Assembly: GCF_024266585.1 (NCBI RefSeq)
Contig: NZ_CP100647.1
Location: 4,817,001-4,881,000, forward strand
DNA length: 64,000 nucleotides
Direction: 5' to 3'
Source of the DNA: Xanthomonas sacchari
GTDB taxonomy: Bacteria; Pseudomonadota; Gammaproteobacteria; Xanthomonadales; Xanthomonadaceae
Below, piece after piece: positions 4,290 through 42,920 of this stretch. Position 1 is the stretch's first letter. Each line of letters opens with the position of its first letter. The translations under genes and the position numbers were made by a program. A model generated the notes under the pieces. It saw only the letters and a program-made list of their open reading frames with translations. It was not told the origin of the DNA and searched no databases.

Positions 4290-4318
4290 TTGACCCGCCG
4301 CCGCATCCAGCCTATCGT
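4290..4318 (+). promoter_or_regulatory. Sigma70-type promoter of metE
   Basis: TTGACC at 4290-4295 and TATCGT at 4313-4318 are separated by exactly 17 bases. They lie just upstream of the cobalamin riboswitch, so transcription should begin near 4325 and give a leader of about 450 bases. The assignment is by eye. Confidence 0.6.
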
Positions 4319-4340
4319 GCGCTCGCCGAAGGTATTCATC

Positions 4341-4555
4341 GCTTCATTCGGATGAAGGGATGGACTTAAACGGGAATCCGGTGACGGCCGGCGCCGCAAG
4401 CGCCTGCCCATTCCGGAGCTGCCCCGCAGCGGTGAATGGAAACGACCTCCGTCAATGGCACTGGGCCGGCGCATGCCGGCCTGGGAAGCGACGGACAGTA
4501 GGTGCGCAGCCGGCACGGTGCGCGTGTCCATCAGCCCGAATACCGGCCCCGGCCG
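4341..4555 (+). ncRNA. Cobalamin riboswitch in the metE leader
   Basis: The conserved core of the cobalamin aptamer is present in order. GGGAATCCGGTG is at 4372-4383, CCGGAGCTGCCCCGCAG followed by CGGTGA is at about 4413-4435, and a B12 box (AGCCCGAATACCGGCC) is at 4533-4548. In this RNA family, adenosyl- or methylcobalamin binding shuts off the downstream gene. That makes sense here because MetE is the B12-independent methionine synthase. The outer boundaries are approximate. Two perfect hairpins follow the aptamer and probably form part of the expression platform. Confidence 0.9.
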
Positions 4556-4603
4556 GAGGACCGTGCGTCCTCCGATTCGACCTGGCGCCTCCGCGGGGAG
4601 GCG
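4554..4603 (+). promoter_or_regulatory. Paired hairpins after the riboswitch aptamer
   Basis: Two perfect stem-loops follow the B12 box directly. The first is CGGAGGAC-CGTGC-GTCCTCCG (4554-4574). The second is CGCCTCC-GCGG-GGAGGCG (4586-4603). Neither has a T-run, so they do not look like an intrinsic terminator. Note that the GGAGG and CCTCC arms of the two hairpins could also pair with each other, which would give alternative folds. They may make up the switching part of the riboswitch, or an RNA-stability or Rho-related structure. About 170 bases with no recognisable feature separate them from metE. Confidence 0.5.
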
Positions 4604-23172: not shown

Positions 23173-23364
23173 GAAGGTCTCCAAGCGTGGTGCACGCGGC
23201 CGCCCGACCCTCGCAGGCAGCGGTCCGACCGGATCGGCGGGTGGCGGCGGTGTCGCGAAGACTGCAACGGCGCAGGCGGCGGGCCTGCGGGCGGTCGTCG
23301 CTGCACCGACCCTCTCCCCCCGGAGATCACACGGTCGGCGCCGCGCGGTGTGCTTCGCGCGGCT

Positions 23365-23535
23365 GTCGGCAGGTCTTCGGGCTGATGGGCGGCGGCCGCG
23401 TGGCCGGTTCCTAGCCCGTCGCTTCCCAAGGCGGGCGCCTCAGTGCGGATGACGGGTTCGTTCCCAATTACCGCTGCGGGGCAGCGCCGGAATTGGCGTT
23501 GCCACGCCGCACCGGCTTCCCTTTTGATCCCGCGG
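23365..23535 (-). ncRNA. Cobalamin riboswitch in the nrdA leader
   Basis: Read on the minus strand, the aptamer core is present in full. GGGAAGCCGGTG is at 23521-23510, TTCCGGCGCTGCCCCGCAG followed by CGGTAA is at about 23492-23468, and a near-consensus B12 box (TCAGCCCGAAGACCTGCC) is at 23385-23368. Cobalamin riboswitches in front of class Ia reductases are known in other bacteria (for example Streptomyces) that also own a B12-dependent class II enzyme; a class II gene is not in this window. After the box, GCCGCGCG...CGCGCGGC can form a strong hairpin before a leader of about 190 bases to nrdA. Confidence 0.9.
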
Positions 23536-23558
23536 CTTGGGGCCGCCGGAACCGACCA

Positions 23559-23606
23559 CCCCAAGATAGTGTGGTCGCTCGACGACGTCAACGCTAAATA
23601 TGGGTG
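23559..23606 (-). promoter_or_regulatory. nrdA promoter with two NrdR-box-like sites
   Basis: On the minus strand TTGACG (23591-23586) and TATCTT (23568-23563) form a sigma70-type promoter with a 17-base spacer, so the start lies near 23556. Two sites resemble the NrdR box (core CWATATATWG). CACTATCTTG is centred at 23566/23567 over the -10 element. CCATATTTAG is centred at 23598/23599 just upstream of the -35 element. The centres are 32 bases apart, the three-turn spacing usual for paired NrdR boxes. Repression by NrdR-(d)ATP is therefore likely. Confidence 0.7.
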
Positions 23607-34248: not shown

Positions 34249-34632
34249 ATGAAATCCCTGCCGCAATCCTTCTTCGATGCTTCGGCGATGGTGTTGTCCG
34301 GGCTGTGCCTGCTGCACTGCCTGGCGTTGCCGTTGCTGGCGGCGGCGCTGCCGCTGTTCGGCGTCTGGGCCGAGGCCGAATGGGTGCACGTGCTGTTCGT
34401 GGCGATCGCCGCGCCGTTGGCGGGGCTGGCGTTGTGGCGCGGGCACCAGCGCGACGCGCTGCCCTGGCCGCTGTGGACGCTGGCGGCGCTGGGCCTGCTC
34501 GGTCTGCTGGCCGGCGCCTTCGGCATTCCCGACGAGGCCAGCGAAACCGCAATGACGGTGAGCGGCAGCCTGGCCTTGGCCAGTGCGCACCTGTGGAACT
34601 GGCGCCGGCACCGGCAGCGTTGCCGGCACTAA
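34249..34632 (+). CDS. MerC domain membrane protein
   Basis: Protein of 127 residues with four hydrophobic segments. The first contains [14 protein letters not shown], the Cys-His-containing helix of MerC-type mercury/metal membrane proteins. Together with the divergent zinc GTPase and the Zur-like site, a zinc uptake or handling role under starvation is more likely than mercury transport. ATG at 34249 has GGAG upstream. Confidence 0.85.
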
Positions 34633-34699
34633 CAGGCAGGCGGGCGGCAGGCGGCATAGCGCACGGTTACTGGAGGCGGCAATCGGGTCGAGGCGCAGT

Positions 34700-35510
34700 G
34701 TTGTTGTTGCGGCTTTGGCTTTGGCTGTTGCCGTTGCTGTTGCCATTGCTGTTGCCGTTGTTTTGCTGTTGTTTTGCTTTTGATTTACCGGGTTCCCTTC
34801 CGCAGCGGCGGATGGACCGGGGAAAAACCCGAAGGGCGGCGCACATGGATGTGCGCCGTTCGCGGCAGGGGCAGGATGCCCCTTCCGCGAATCCCCGGTG
34901 CATCCGCGGACCCGGAGCGCGCAGCGCGGAGCGCGCAGCGCGGAGGGCGCAGCGCGGAGGGCGCAAGGCAGGGCGCGCTTTCTTTTGGTTACTTTTCTTT
35001 GCGCGAGCAAAGAAAAGTAACTCGCCCGTTAGGGCGAAAGCCTTTGCTGTTGCTTGAATTTTGCGTGTCAGACGAGAAGGTCTGTAGGAGCGGCTTCAGC
35101 CGCGACATGCATTACCGATCATGTGGGTCGCGGCTGAAGCCGCTCCTACGATCTAGCGATCGCCACCGCAAGAGCAAGAGCAAAGCTTTCGCCTGACGGC
35201 GAGTTACTTTTCTTTGCTTGTGCAAAGAAAAGTAACCAAAAGAAAGCACACCCTGCCTACGCGCCCTCCGCGCTAACGCGCTCCGGGTCCGCGTCCAGCC
35301 CGGGGATCCGCGGAAGGGGCATCCTGCCCCTGCCGCGGACGGCGCACATCCCTGTGCGCCGCCCCTTCGGGGTTTTTCCCCGCGCTGGCCGCCGCTTCGG
35401 AAGGGAACCCGGTAAGTCAAAAGCCAGAACAACGGCAACGGCAACAACAACAACTACCACAACCAAAGCAATAACAACCGCAACCGCAACCGCAACCGCA
35501 ACCGCAACAG
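34700..35510. repeat. Composite inverted-repeat element, copy 1
   Basis: Large dyad with no gene, in the gap between two convergent genes. From the left it has a TTG-rich tandem region (34700-34778), then ACCGGGTTCCCTT, AAAAACCCGAAGGG, the hairpin GGCGCACAT-GG-ATGTGCGCC, then GGGGCA-GGA-TGCCCC. Next comes a perfect 14-bp stem GTTACTTTTCTTTG/CAAAGAAAAGTAAC (34988-35021). A central REP pair (35084-35106 and 35127-35149) forms the middle. Then the same modules occur in reverse order and orientation (second 14-bp stem at 35203-35236), ending in a CAA-rich tandem region. CCCCTTCGGGG-TTTTT at about 35362-35378 and its mirror form outward-reading intrinsic terminators. The gap from 35511 to 35805 has only GATTCCC-type repeats. 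Confidence 0.9.
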
Positions 35511-35805
35511 TCGATGCTGTCGTTCTATCGGGCAAAAGCTCGGCATCTACCGGCTTCGGTCGGCACCAAGGCAACACGCGCGGCAACGCCACAAGGGACA
35601 TAAGCAGTCCTCAAGAGCCGTTGGTGACATGCAAGGCGGGACGCGCAGCACGTGCCGTCTGAAACACAGCACTATTACGCATGACGGCAGTCGTGCGCTT
35701 CGCGCATGACATCAGTTACGGCGGTACGCCCCGTACATCGAGGCTGGGAAAGGAAAGCGACAACCAGCTTTCCCGATTCCCCATTCCCATTTCCCCATTC
35801 CCGGC

Positions 35806-37554
35806 CTACAGATCAAACCCCAGCAGCAACGGATCGTGGTCCGAACTGCGCCACGGACCAGGCAGATCGCGCTCGCGGTAGCCGTCGCTGTCGGGCAGGT
35901 CGGCGTTGACGTGCCATTCGGCGGCGCCGCGCAACCGCGAAGCCAGCGCCGGGCTCAGCAAGGCGTGGTCCAGCCGGCCGCTAAGGCCGCGATAGACGAA
36001 GCTGTAGGGTTGCGCGACATGCGCCTCGCGCAGCGCGTCGCGCCAGCCGGCATCGCCCAGCAGGCGCAGCGGATCTTCCATCGCGTAGGCGTTGAAGTCG
36101 CCCAGCAACACGCTGGCCGCGCTGCCGGTGCCGGTGGGGTCGCTGCGCAACCACGCGTCCACGCGGCGCGCCGACTCGGTGCGGGTCGCGTTCCAGCAGC
36201 CCTGGCCGTCGCCACGGTCGGCGTCGGCGCCGCTGGCTTCGCCACAGCCCTTGGACTTGAAGTGATTGGCCACCACCACGAACGGCACACCGTTGCCGCG
36301 GCGGAACGCCTGCGCCAACGGCACCCGGCTGTGCTCGGCGAACGGCCCGCCTTCCAGCACCGCCGGCTTGCCCACCGGGCTGACCCGCGAGGCACGGTAG
36401 ATCAGCCCGACCCGGATCGGGTTGTCGCCGGGGCCACGCCCGGCATCGACGAAGCGCCAGTCGCCGCCACCGGCGTTGAGCGCATCGACCAGACTGGCGA
36501 TCGCCGAGGTCGGCCCGTAGCCGTCGTTCTCCAGCTCCATCAACGCGGCGACATCGGCCTGCAGCGGGCGGATCGTCGCCACCAGCTTGCGCAGCTGCGC
36601 CTGGAACTCGGCGGGCGTGCGCGCACCGCGCAAGGTCGGGAAACCGCCGCCGCGGCCGTCGCCGTTGAAGAAATTCTCCAGATTGAACGCGGCGATGCGC
36701 ACGCTGCCGTCGACCTGCGGCGGCGCCGGCTCCGGCGGCGGGGTCAGCTGCAACGCAGCGGTCGGGTACAGCCGCGCGGTGCCATCGATCACCCCACCGA
36801 CGATGCCCTCCACGTCCTGCACCGTGCTGCCCGCGCGCGGCGGCGCAGTGGCACTGCCCAGATAATCCGGGAGTTTTGCAGTTGCCGTTGCCGTTGCCGA
36901 AGTCGGAGTCGGAGTCGATGCACCGAGCGTGCCCAGCCGCAGCCCGCGCCGCGCGTTGTCGGCCACGACCGCCGCCAACTCGGCGCTGCCGGGCGCGGCC
37001 ACTTCGCTGGGCTGCCACAGGCGCCCGCCAAAGGCCACGCCCAGTTCGCCGGTCTTGCCCAGCGCGTCGTTGTCGACCACGGTCAGCGGCGCGGCGATGC
37101 GCACGCGTATGCCGGCCAGCGCCGACCAGTCGGCCGGTGCGGCGTCGAGCACCTGCAACGGCAAGGGCTGCGCGCGCGCCAGCAGCGTATGCCCCTGCTC
37201 CAGCACGCTGCGCCCGACGAACGCGGTGCCGGCCTTGGCCGGCGCCGCGGCCTGCGGCGCCAGCTCGCCCCACACCCGCACGCGGTCGCCCGGCGTCAGG
37301 CTGCGCTCGGCATCGCCGCGCACCAGCAGCGCGTCGGCGGTGAGCGGATCGTCGTCGCCGGCGTCCTGCACCAGGTAGCCGCTGCCGCCGGCCTCCACCC
37401 GCGCGGTGACCACGCCCTCGAACACCACACCCTGCGCCTGCGGACCCGGGCGCAACTGCCCGATCGGCAGCAGCGTCGGCGGCGTCAGCGCCTGCGCGGC
37501 GGGGGCTGCGACCAGCAGCAACAACGACAACAACGATGGCGGCGGCATGCGCAT
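35806..37554 (-). CDS. Secreted ExeM/NucH-type endonuclease
   Basis: Extracellular nuclease of 582 residues with a signal peptide (LLSLLLLVAAPAAQA). An OB-fold-like N-terminal part (about 40-250) binds nucleic acid in this family. The DNase I-like endonuclease/exonuclease/phosphatase domain follows, with RIAAFNLENFF, ALMELENDGYG, VVANHFKSKG, LLGDFNAY and SDHDPLL giving the metal and catalytic residues. Several related nucleases help bacteria use or resist extracellular DNA traps. The ATG at 37554 has AAGGAGA at good distance. A run of Thr/Ala/Pro (ASTPTPTSATATATA) links the domains. Confidence 0.9.
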   Translation of the reverse strand: MRMPPPSLLSLLLLVAAPAAQALTPPTLLPIGQLRPGPQAQGVVFEGVVTARVEAGGSGYLVQDAGDDDPLTADALLVRGDAERSLTPGDRVRVWGELAPQAAAPAKAGTAFVGRSVLEQGHTLLARAQPLPLQVLDAAPADWSALAGIRVRIAAPLTVVDNDALGKTGELGVAFGGRLWQPSEVAAPGSAELAAVVADNARRGLRLGTLGASTPTPTSATATATAKLPDYLGSATAPPRAGSTVQDVEGIVGGVIDGTARLYPTAALQLTPPPEPAPPQVDGSVRIAAFNLENFFNGDGRGGGFPTLRGARTPAEFQAQLRKLVATIRPLQADVAALMELENDGYGPTSAIASLVDALNAGGGDWRFVDAGRGPGDNPIRVGLIYRASRVSPVGKPAVLEGGPFAEHSRVPLAQAFRRGNGVPFVVVANHFKSKGCGEASGADADRGDGQGCWNATRTESARRVDAWLRSDPTGTGSAASVLLGDFNAYAMEDPLRLLGDAGWRDALREAHVAQPYSFVYRGLSGRLDHALLSPALASRLRGAAEWHVNADLPDSDGYRERDLPGPWRSSDHDPLLLGFDL

Positions 37555-42097: not shown

Positions 42098-42920
42098 GCT
42101 TTTGCTCCCGCTTTTGCTCCCGCTTTTGCTCCCGCTTTTGCTCCCGCGGTTGCTCCCGCGGTTGCTCTTGCTTTGCCTTTGACTTACCGGGTCCCCTCGG
42201 CGCGGCAGCCGCGGCGGGGAAAAACCCGAAGGGCGGCGCACATGGATGTGCGCCGTTCGCGGCAGGGGCAGGATGCCCCTTCCGCGAATCCCCGTCGTGG
42301 CTGCGCACCCGGAGCGCGTAGCGCGGAGGGCGCGCTGCGGGGTGTGCTTTCTTTTGGTTACTTTTCTTTGCACAAGCAAAGAAAAGTAACTCGCCGCAAG
42401 GCGAAAGCTTTGCTCTTGCACTTGCTCTTGCACTTGCTGCTGCTGCTGCTGCTGCTGCGGCGGCGGCGGCCGCTGGATCATAGGACCGGCTTCAGCCGCG
42501 ACTGGCATTACCGATCATGTGGGTCGCGGCTAAAGCCGCTCCTACAGACCTTCTCGCCCGACACGCAAACATCGAGCAACAGCAAGAGCTTTCGCCCTTG
42601 CGGGCGAGTTACTTTTCTTTGCTCGCGCAAAGAAAAGGTAACCAAAAGAAGCGCTTTACCACAGCCGAAGGCTGGTCAAGCGCGCCCTGCCTCGCGCCCT
42701 CCGCGCTGCGCGCTCCGGGTCCGCGTCCAGCCCGGGGATCCGCGGAAGGGGCATCCTGCCCCTGCCGCGGACGGCGCACATCCCTGTGCGCCGCCCCTTC
42801 GGGGTTTTTCCCCGAGCTGGCCGCCGCTTCGTAAGGGAACCCAGTAAATCAAAAGCAAACGCAACAGCAAAAGCAGAGCTACAGCAACGCCAACGCCAAC
42901 GCCAACGCCAACAACTACAG
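42098..42920. repeat. Composite inverted-repeat element, copy 2
   Basis: Second copy of the element seen at 34.7-35.5 kb, here between liuB and liuD. On the left are six 12-bp units of GCTTTTGCTCCC type (42098-42169). The ACCGGGTCCCC, AAAAACCCGAAGGG, GGCGCACAT-GG-ATGTGCGCC and GGGGCA-GGA-TGCCCC modules and the GTTACTTTTCTTTG stem (42357-42390) follow. The centre has a TGC/GGC trinucleotide run and a REP pair (42481-42502, 42522-42545). The mirrored modules follow, with terminator CCCCTTCGGGG-TTTTT at about 42794-42809, ending in a CAACGC tandem run (42884-42911). It holds no coding remains. Bases 41952-42097 and 42921-43026 are also non-coding. Confidence 0.9.

Follow-up and report, generated by a model that had tools for sequence, protein, structure and literature searches.

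Results

The window, 64,000 nucleotides from the single 4.89-Mb contig of the Xanthomonas sacchari genome (positions 4,817,001-4,881,000), contains two composite palindromes of about 0.8 kb, copy 1 at 34.70-35.51 kb and copy 2 at 42.10-42.91 kb. Both are inverted pairs of arms of about 230-270 nt with a REP doublet in the middle (Table 1). In copy 1, repeat analysis matched the inverted arms over 99 nt at 86%, 61 nt at 93% and 70 nt at 80%, and the halves of the central REP doublet over 23 nt at 100%. The modules of copy 1 are mirrored in order: TTG-rich arrays, a CCGGGTTCCC block, GGGGAAAAACCC (with an outward CCCTTCGGGTTTTT), two hairpins, a 14-bp tandem G+C-rich repeat, an AT-rich palindrome with a 15-bp stem, and the REP doublet. 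An earlier note on this DNA had described such a mirrored element and a second copy at 42.1-42.9 kb; the modules it named are present where it placed them, and the second copy is real. Gene names used here (liuB, liuD, MerC, nuclease) were read from translations. Spurious reading frames are usual in G+C-rich DNA, and we read the many frames that cross the element as such. Elsewhere in the window, two cobalamin riboswitches score above the Rfam gathering threshold (4312-4565, + strand; 23351-23571, - strand).

Each arm can be followed from its outer to its inner end. TTGCNN hexamers are followed by GCTTTTGA, CCGGGTTCCC, stem P1, GGGGAAAAACCC and the mini-hairpin CCCGAAGGG. Then come hairpin C (loop CA-N-GGA-YG), hairpin D (loop CA(N)GGATG), the closing strand P1', GGACCCGG and a G+C-rich segment. 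The inner end consists of TTTCTTTTGG with the long hairpin F (GGTTACTTTTCTTTGC-NNNN-GCAAAGAAAAGTAACY), hairpin P6 and GCGAAAGC. None of the 21 other arms aligned from the own genome shows the expansion of module E seen in the left arm of copy 1.

Table 1. Features of the two composite palindromes, in positions of the window
Feature	Position	Strand	Basis
Outer tandem array of TTGCNN-type hexamers, copy 1 left	34699..34775	+	sequence
Copy 1 left arm, GCTTTTGA ... GCGAAAGC; + is the modelled ('functional') strand	34776..35041	+	sequence, fold, alignment of 111 arms
Stem P1, 5' side, pairing with 34892-34907; the stem with the strongest variation	34808..34823	+	fold, pair counts
Hairpin C, loop CATGGATG, GGA at 34847-34849	34837..34858	+	sequence; loop counts in 111 arms
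Hairpin D, loop CAGGATG, GGA at 34874-34876	34859..34891	+	sequence; loop counts in 111 arms
Stem P1, 3' side	34892..34907	+	fold
Module E, here expanded into tandem 14-bp units	34913..34968	+	repeat analysis
Module F, TTTCTTTTGG and long AT-rich hairpin GGTTACTTTTCTTTGC/GCAAAGAAAAGTAACT	34979..35022	+	sequence, repeat analysis; model R1
Hairpin P6 (CGCCC GTTA GGGCG)	35023..35036	+	sequence, fold
Central REP doublet of copy 1, GTAGGAGCGGCTTCAGCCGCGAC and its inverse; separate insertion	35084..35149	.	sequence, repeat analysis
Copy 1 right arm (modelled strand -)	35185..35424	-	sequence, own-genome loci
Hairpin D, copy 1 right arm	35307..35339	-	sequence
Hairpin C, copy 1 right arm, loop CAGGGATG on the - strand	35340..35361	-	sequence
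Outer hexamer array, copy 1 right	35425..35512	-	sequence, array scan
Outer hexamer array, copy 2 left	42100..42174	+	sequence
Copy 2 left arm, between liuB-like and liuD-like genes	42175..42408	+	sequence; arm at site in 20/20 genus genomes
Central REP doublet of copy 2	42480..42546	.	sequence
Copy 2 right arm	42588..42856	-	sequence; full-length at site in 20/20
Outer hexamer array, copy 2 right	42857..42912	-	sequence

The arm is the repeating unit

Copy 1 has 119 matches in its own genome, counting both strands and REP-only matches, of which there are many. We fetched 15 of the own-genome loci. Seven hold two arms flanking a REP pair and mirrored in the same way, and eight hold a single arm; because arms also occur alone, the repeating unit is the arm and not the composite. 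The structured repeats form a real, clearly defined and widespread family, of which the composite element is the paired form. Across the genus, we gathered arms with a profile of the arm itself: 257 profile hits gave 161 distinct full-length arms, and 111 after near-identical arms were dropped. Adjacent arm pairs in the genus loci, deduplicated, stand in the same inverted order with F ends facing in 59/61 cases, spaced bimodally at 26-81 and 104-176 bp with one overlap. F ends also face each other in two pairs from another genus of the family (G205), whereas outside the family paired arms point F outwards (27/31). TTGCNN-type arrays mark the outer end of 93/111 arms, compared with 19/1460 random windows of the genus loci. 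As a general arm feature outside the genus they are unsupported: among 103 distant arms, 14 have them on one strand and 10 on the other. Another TTGC-hexamer array occurs inside a frame read as a nuclease gene, away from any arm (window 36876-36897), and two more lie in the own genome with no nearby arm match (291034-291067 and 4537786-4537813).

The earlier note had taken the modules for a fixed composite forming a defined family. The family stands, as does the mirrored order, which recurs in all seven own pairs and in nearly all genus pairs; the fixed composite does not, given the single arms and the REP doublet, both halves of which are found at the orthologous copy-2 site in 10/20 genomes (at most 4 mismatches). 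The REP doublet is a separable passenger, not a fixed part of the element. The note had also held that separate arms with no fixed arrangement would speak for chance assembly: separate arms do exist, but their inner order is the same. At six loci (L011, L012, L017, L019, L020 and L021) some arms carry a palindromic insert of about 90-100 bp in place of the hairpin D tip, and a palindrome of about 27-30 bp, GACCAGCC..GGCTG, lies beside or inside F. These nested inserts vary between genomes at the L011 or L021 site.

The arm is predicted to fold as a single strand with covarying stems

The left arm of copy 1 folds with z-scores of -7.8 and -7.6 on the two strands, and 0/200 shuffles give as good a fold. 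A consensus structure of the 111 non-redundant arms (RNAalifold) on the inward strand contains P1, C, D and F. We counted covariation in P1-C-D on a 22-arm MAFFT alignment. Both sides had changed in 20/38 pairs (105 such cells), and 95.5% of 836 cells were paired, against 38-49% in slid controls, which flatter the structure because it was derived from the same alignment; related rows are counted repeatedly. None of 500 shuffles reached the both-side changes, the paired cells or the covariation score. One of the five covariation measures, further pair types, did not separate the arms from shuffles (37 versus 35.6, reached by 172/500). Two further alignments, A1 and A2, hold 22 and 15 of 24 picked arms, A2 with one Cupriavidus stretch added.

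Wobble pairs point to one strand. Among 48 pairs predicted from both strands, G.T outnumbers A.C by 42 cells to 10, spread over 14 and 10 pairs respectively. Where a single strand predicts the pair, the counts are 415 to 4 for inward wobble and, for the outward strand, 128 A.C to 3 G.T, although such pairs show their own strand's wobble by construction. The bias fits an arm that would act as RNA or single-stranded DNA of the inward strand. In raw energy the modelled strand folds better in 111/111 genus arms, 42/50 distant arms with GGA loops and 44/54 without. After shuffle correction it does so in 83/111, 30/50 and 28/54. The energy advantage is mostly base composition and is not decisive for the strand.

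Sites are filled, empty or maintained

Two full-length arms, in most cases of two sub-types, occupy the copy-2 site between the liuB-like and liuD-like genes in 20/20 genus genomes. At this site 7/83 pairs of the right arm and 22/84 of the left arm alternate between Watson-Crick types. Wobbles there number 76 G.T against 3 A.C and 131 against 2, respectively, the underlying structures having been predicted from the strand so favored. GGA is retained in 73/80 loops, and four of the seven losses fall in the two smallest genomes (G002 and G016). Either selection acting on the site or gene conversion among copies could account for this upkeep. The LiuD-like protein has its best named matches in Stenotrophomonas and Xanthomonas. 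In Stenotrophomonas, one contig (L055, 4692-4943) has a single arm between liuB- and liuD-like genes, and two others (L054 and L114) have only a short spacer there.

Presence and absence was seen at three other sites. Copy 1 is present in 7/18 genomes that have the neighboring gene. In several genomes that lack it (L172-L181), the site carries GGGATTC/GGGATTG heptamers in inverted runs; quadruplex formation has been described for a Xanthomonas GGGNATC repeat (PMC4692102). The own genome carries single arms at L015 and L019, where 5/5 relatives examined yielded none; the L015 comparison is not clean, since the relatives carry other sequence there. At most of the other own-genome sites that we compared with relatives, spacing suggests the presence of an element. 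In one relative, another pair has had its interior deleted between the C hairpins, the kind of loss that unstable palindromes undergo. In another genome (G019, C1:662698-663873), flanks of two own-genome elements, the left of one and the right of the other, lie about 1.1 kb apart, through rearrangement or misassembly across the repeat.

The comparison of filled and empty sites that the earlier note had proposed thus yielded both kinds of site, but no target duplication was demonstrated, the flanks of copy 1 being too diverged. At L019, the 9-bp AGCAGAAGC lies on both sides of the arm, but it is hexamer-like and unseen in the aligned empty sites. The own genome contains one Y1 transposase match (268970-269296), and there is no doublet-type REP, arm, F or C module within 1.5 kb on each side of it.

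The architecture recurs in many gammaproteobacteria

As DNA, the arm matches 24/41 genomes including its own, among them 20/20 of the genus. To look further afield we used R1, a covariance model of F and P6 only, built from 16 sequences, one of them from Cupriavidus. R1 matches 82/369 genomes of the class in 66/272 genera, often several times (E up to 1e-4). A like architecture lies upstream of F in a good part of the distant loci, with unrelated stem sequences. With a rough frame caller, the F end at distant loci faces a gene 3' end in 21 cases, a 5' end in 10 and nothing near in 10 (n = 41), and the P1 end a 3' end in 12, a 5' end in 13 and nothing near in 16; some of these frames lie inside elements, and the orientations are suggestive at most. 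In two distant genomes (L283 and L293), a small membrane-protein-like frame sits cargo-like between outward-facing arms.

No Rfam family covers the element at gathering score. A relaxed search of 34600-35600 gave 21 matches, all below gathering score; the top two were hits of microRNA models to the REP doublet (E 4.7e-5 and 1.6e-4). The arm had no match among plasmid and phage records in distant mode (E limit 1e-5). Open-access literature on the F sequence returned unrelated work only, and that on CsrA-linked repeats, Xanthomonas or Lysobacter repeats and structured repeats held nothing recognizable as this arm family, a weak form of absence. PMC9788540, considered as an earlier description of the family, concerns in its accessible part two CsrA-related sRNAs and no repeat family.

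Hairpin loops keep GGA

The stems of C and D change while both loops keep GGA: it is found in the C loop of 106/111 and the D loop of 97/111 genus arms. CsrA-selected SELEX ligands have the consensus RUACARGGAUGU and mostly carry GGA in a hairpin loop, CsrB repeats present CAGGA(U/A/C)G in loops, and ANGGAN loops contact RsmE (PMC7652899). The commonest D loop, CAGGATG (77/111), matches the CsrB repeats. Among C loops, those containing AGGA or GGGA (34/111) fit the SELEX core, and the commonest, UGGA (52/111), fits ANGGA but not ARGGA. SELEX hairpins mostly have at most 4 contiguous pairs (PMC7652899); the GGA-loop stems here, of 9 and 14 pairs, are longer than those of most such ligands.

Because R1 covers F and P6 only, counting GGA loops upstream of its hits is an independent test. 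We searched 90 loci, with five of the same family (L232, L258 and L260-L262) and duplicates left out. Of 160 arm rows, 117 were taken after repeats, partial arms and one weak full-length row (L274) were dropped, and 104 had enough upstream sequence; the dropped L274 arm has no GGA loop by eye. Outside the family, at least one A(N)GGA hairpin loop lies upstream of the R1 hit in 46/104 arms on the modelled strand and in 1/104 on the other. An earlier pattern-based count had given a GGA loop in 41/97 arms and at least two in 30/97, with 4/97 on the other strand and 7.2% and 0.1% in shuffles. In an open count of loop 4-mers, GGGA and AGGA showed the largest excess: each occurred in 15/45 genomes, against 2.6 and 2.9 in shuffles and 1 and 0 on the other strand. 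We tested the motif after having noticed it, and the genus arms and early class loci that suggested it recur in these later counts.

Does the motif follow CsrA? The own genome has one CsrA gene, and CsrA was detected in 71/82 carriers of the F model and 242/287 other genomes of the class. Across 45 genomes we found no association between CsrA and GGA loops: with CsrA, 16 had loops and 18 had none; without detected CsrA, 5 had loops and 6 had none, some of these genomes being incomplete. Two genomes of one genus (G227 and G332) have GGA loops with CsrA undetected. Three near-complete genomes without CsrA (G147, G264 and G319) have F elements but no GGA loops, in keeping with a link to RsmA, though the cases are few. 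F without GGA loops occurs in 24/45 sampled genomes; GGA is therefore unneeded for spread and is not a mobility signal.

Discussion

We found that the composite palindromes are inverted pairs of arms of a widespread mobile structured repeat, and we propose that the dispersed arms are RsmA-binding RNA modules. From the sequence evidence, we regard this reading as evenly balanced between right and wrong. It builds on the one of the earlier note's proposals that is best supported, a structured RNA or DNA site, through the consensus fold, the covariation, the wobble bias and the upkeep of copy 2. Under the RsmA reading, an arm would act as a single strand that folds, from the outer P1 end to F, into a closed multibranch structure. 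This structure would display two adjacent GGA-loop hairpins, 27 nt apart, of the kind bound by RsmA/CsrA; binding of these candidate loops is predicted from their motif. Transcription leaving a flanking gene would place the arm in the 3' part of the transcript, and in the paired arrangement the first arm met from either side would be in working orientation. Locally, such an arm may serve as a 3'-UTR RsmA site that alters the life or the end of the transcript, with an effect on gene expression. Jointly, the copies may titrate RsmA as a sponge. No sigma-70-like site was found within 34600-35600, and the own single arms have no clear orientation to genes by rough gene calls.

RsmA in Xanthomonas offers a setting for this proposal. 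In the sections of PMC7694677 available, no homologue of CsrB/C or RsmV-Z is reported from any sequenced Xanthomonas, and RsmU is described as an RsmA-sequestering RNA derived from a 3'-UTR. Replacing the predicted GGA motifs of RsmU did not abolish its binding to RsmA (PMC7694677), which indicates that GGA is not the whole of the RsmA site.

The main alternative is a non-autonomous mobile element whose hairpins, in single-stranded DNA, are the targets of a transposase or recombinase supplied in trans. It would be a larger relative of REP/REPIN or of IS200-type ends, and its loops and F would be recognition features with no RNA function. The earlier note had likewise suggested a non-autonomous mobile unit, and the copy-1, L015 and L019 sites support movement, whereas the target duplication that would complete the case was not demonstrated. 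Many similar copies within the genus, presence at the copy-1 site in 7/18 genomes and at the L015 and L019 sites in 1/6 each, the inverted pairs (F facing within the genus, F outward outside the family) and the Y1 transposase match all suit this alternative, and a one-strand bias suits single-stranded DNA as well as RNA. Yet neither a doublet-type REP nor an arm lies within 1.5 kb of the Y1 match, and GGA loops are missing from over half of the sampled genomes although F persists. Moreover, both arms at the copy-2 site, with compensatory changes in 20/20 genomes, are more than a dead insertion would be expected to keep, unless gene conversion is at work. We consider it unlikely, though the strongest of the competing accounts, that recognition of single-stranded DNA is all there is to the arm. 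The RsmA/CsrA reading is the best single explanation, with about as much chance of being right as wrong, and recognition as single-stranded DNA may hold alongside it.

A further alternative is a bidirectional terminator or insulator between transcription units, built on outward intrinsic terminators. The earlier note had listed an outward terminator among the modules, and an outward CCCTTCGGGTTTTT is indeed present in both arms of both window copies. By reading of gene calls, copy 1 lies between convergent genes. On both sides, P6 and the TTACTTTTCT after it receive a terminator-like score when the arm is entered at F; the scan found six terminator-like sites in all (shuffle mean 1.9). The CCCTTCGGGTTTTT sites have stems shorter than the five pairs that the scan requires and are absent from its list. 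Across the genus, an outward T-run of at least 5 is kept in only 65/111 arms, so that a conserved stem with T-run is lacking, and the wobble bias favors the strand opposite to the T-run. Several pairs, copy 2 included, lie between co-directional genes by rough gene calls. A terminator or insulator role is thus improbable. Finally, an account in which unrelated repeats (REP, simple repeats, terminators) came together by chance describes the REP doublet and small nested palindromes, which come and go independently, but for the arm itself it is refuted and has next to no probability left, given one module order over 111 non-redundant full-length arms, covariation, and a like architecture in other families found by the F model only.

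What would the RsmA/CsrA reading mean more broadly? Mobile repeats across much of Gammaproteobacteria may carry and multiply RsmA/CsrA-binding hairpins, so that transposition would build and rewire an RsmA sponge together with RsmA-controlled 3'-ends; we offer this wider view tentatively and give it somewhat less than an even chance. An apparently inert palindrome becomes a testable hypothesis, in which interspersed repeats provide a global regulator with RNA sites. If true, the hypothesis would bear on RsmA titration in Xanthomonas-like bacteria, reported to be without homologues of canonical Rsm sponge RNAs, and on why such AT-rich hairpins are so common in gammaproteobacteria (66/272 genera). 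Even without the RsmA link, a covarying repeat family with F in 82/369 genomes and no Rfam match deserves a name and a model.

Several known systems resemble the arm in part. MITEs are short, non-coding elements with terminal inverted repeats, a target site duplication and presence or absence between genomes. The arm family shares the short non-coding form, the inverted halves and the presence or absence, but differs in having no demonstrated target duplication and no matching transposase found. REP, BIME and REPIN sequences are intergenic palindromes, single or in inverted pairs, present in many copies and associated with RAYT transposases; a REP or BIME is defined as a short palindrome with a GTAG-type head mobilized by RAYT. 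The arms are likewise many-copy intergenic palindromes, single or paired, and a REP doublet is central to many arm pairs. At about 250 nt and with other motifs, the arm falls outside that definition, being several times longer and multibranched with conserved loops, and only the central doublet fits it, in form.

The R178, R200 and R26 repeats of Pseudomonas fluorescens (Silby et al. 2009) are also intergenic, at 101 to 352 bp, with a tail-to-tail bias for the largest repeat families (PMC2718517). We compared them with the arm by description and not by consensus, and the portion of PMC2718517 available draws no link to CsrA.

In having several GGA motifs in the hairpin loops of a non-coding RNA, the putative arm transcript resembles CsrB/C, RsmX/Y/Z and the RsmU of Xanthomonas. 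Those are single or few-copy loci with known expression, whereas the arm is a dispersed, many-copy inverted repeat with a conserved AT-rich F hairpin and only predicted binding to CsrA/RsmA. RsmU offers a further likeness in its 3'-UTR origin (PMC7694677).
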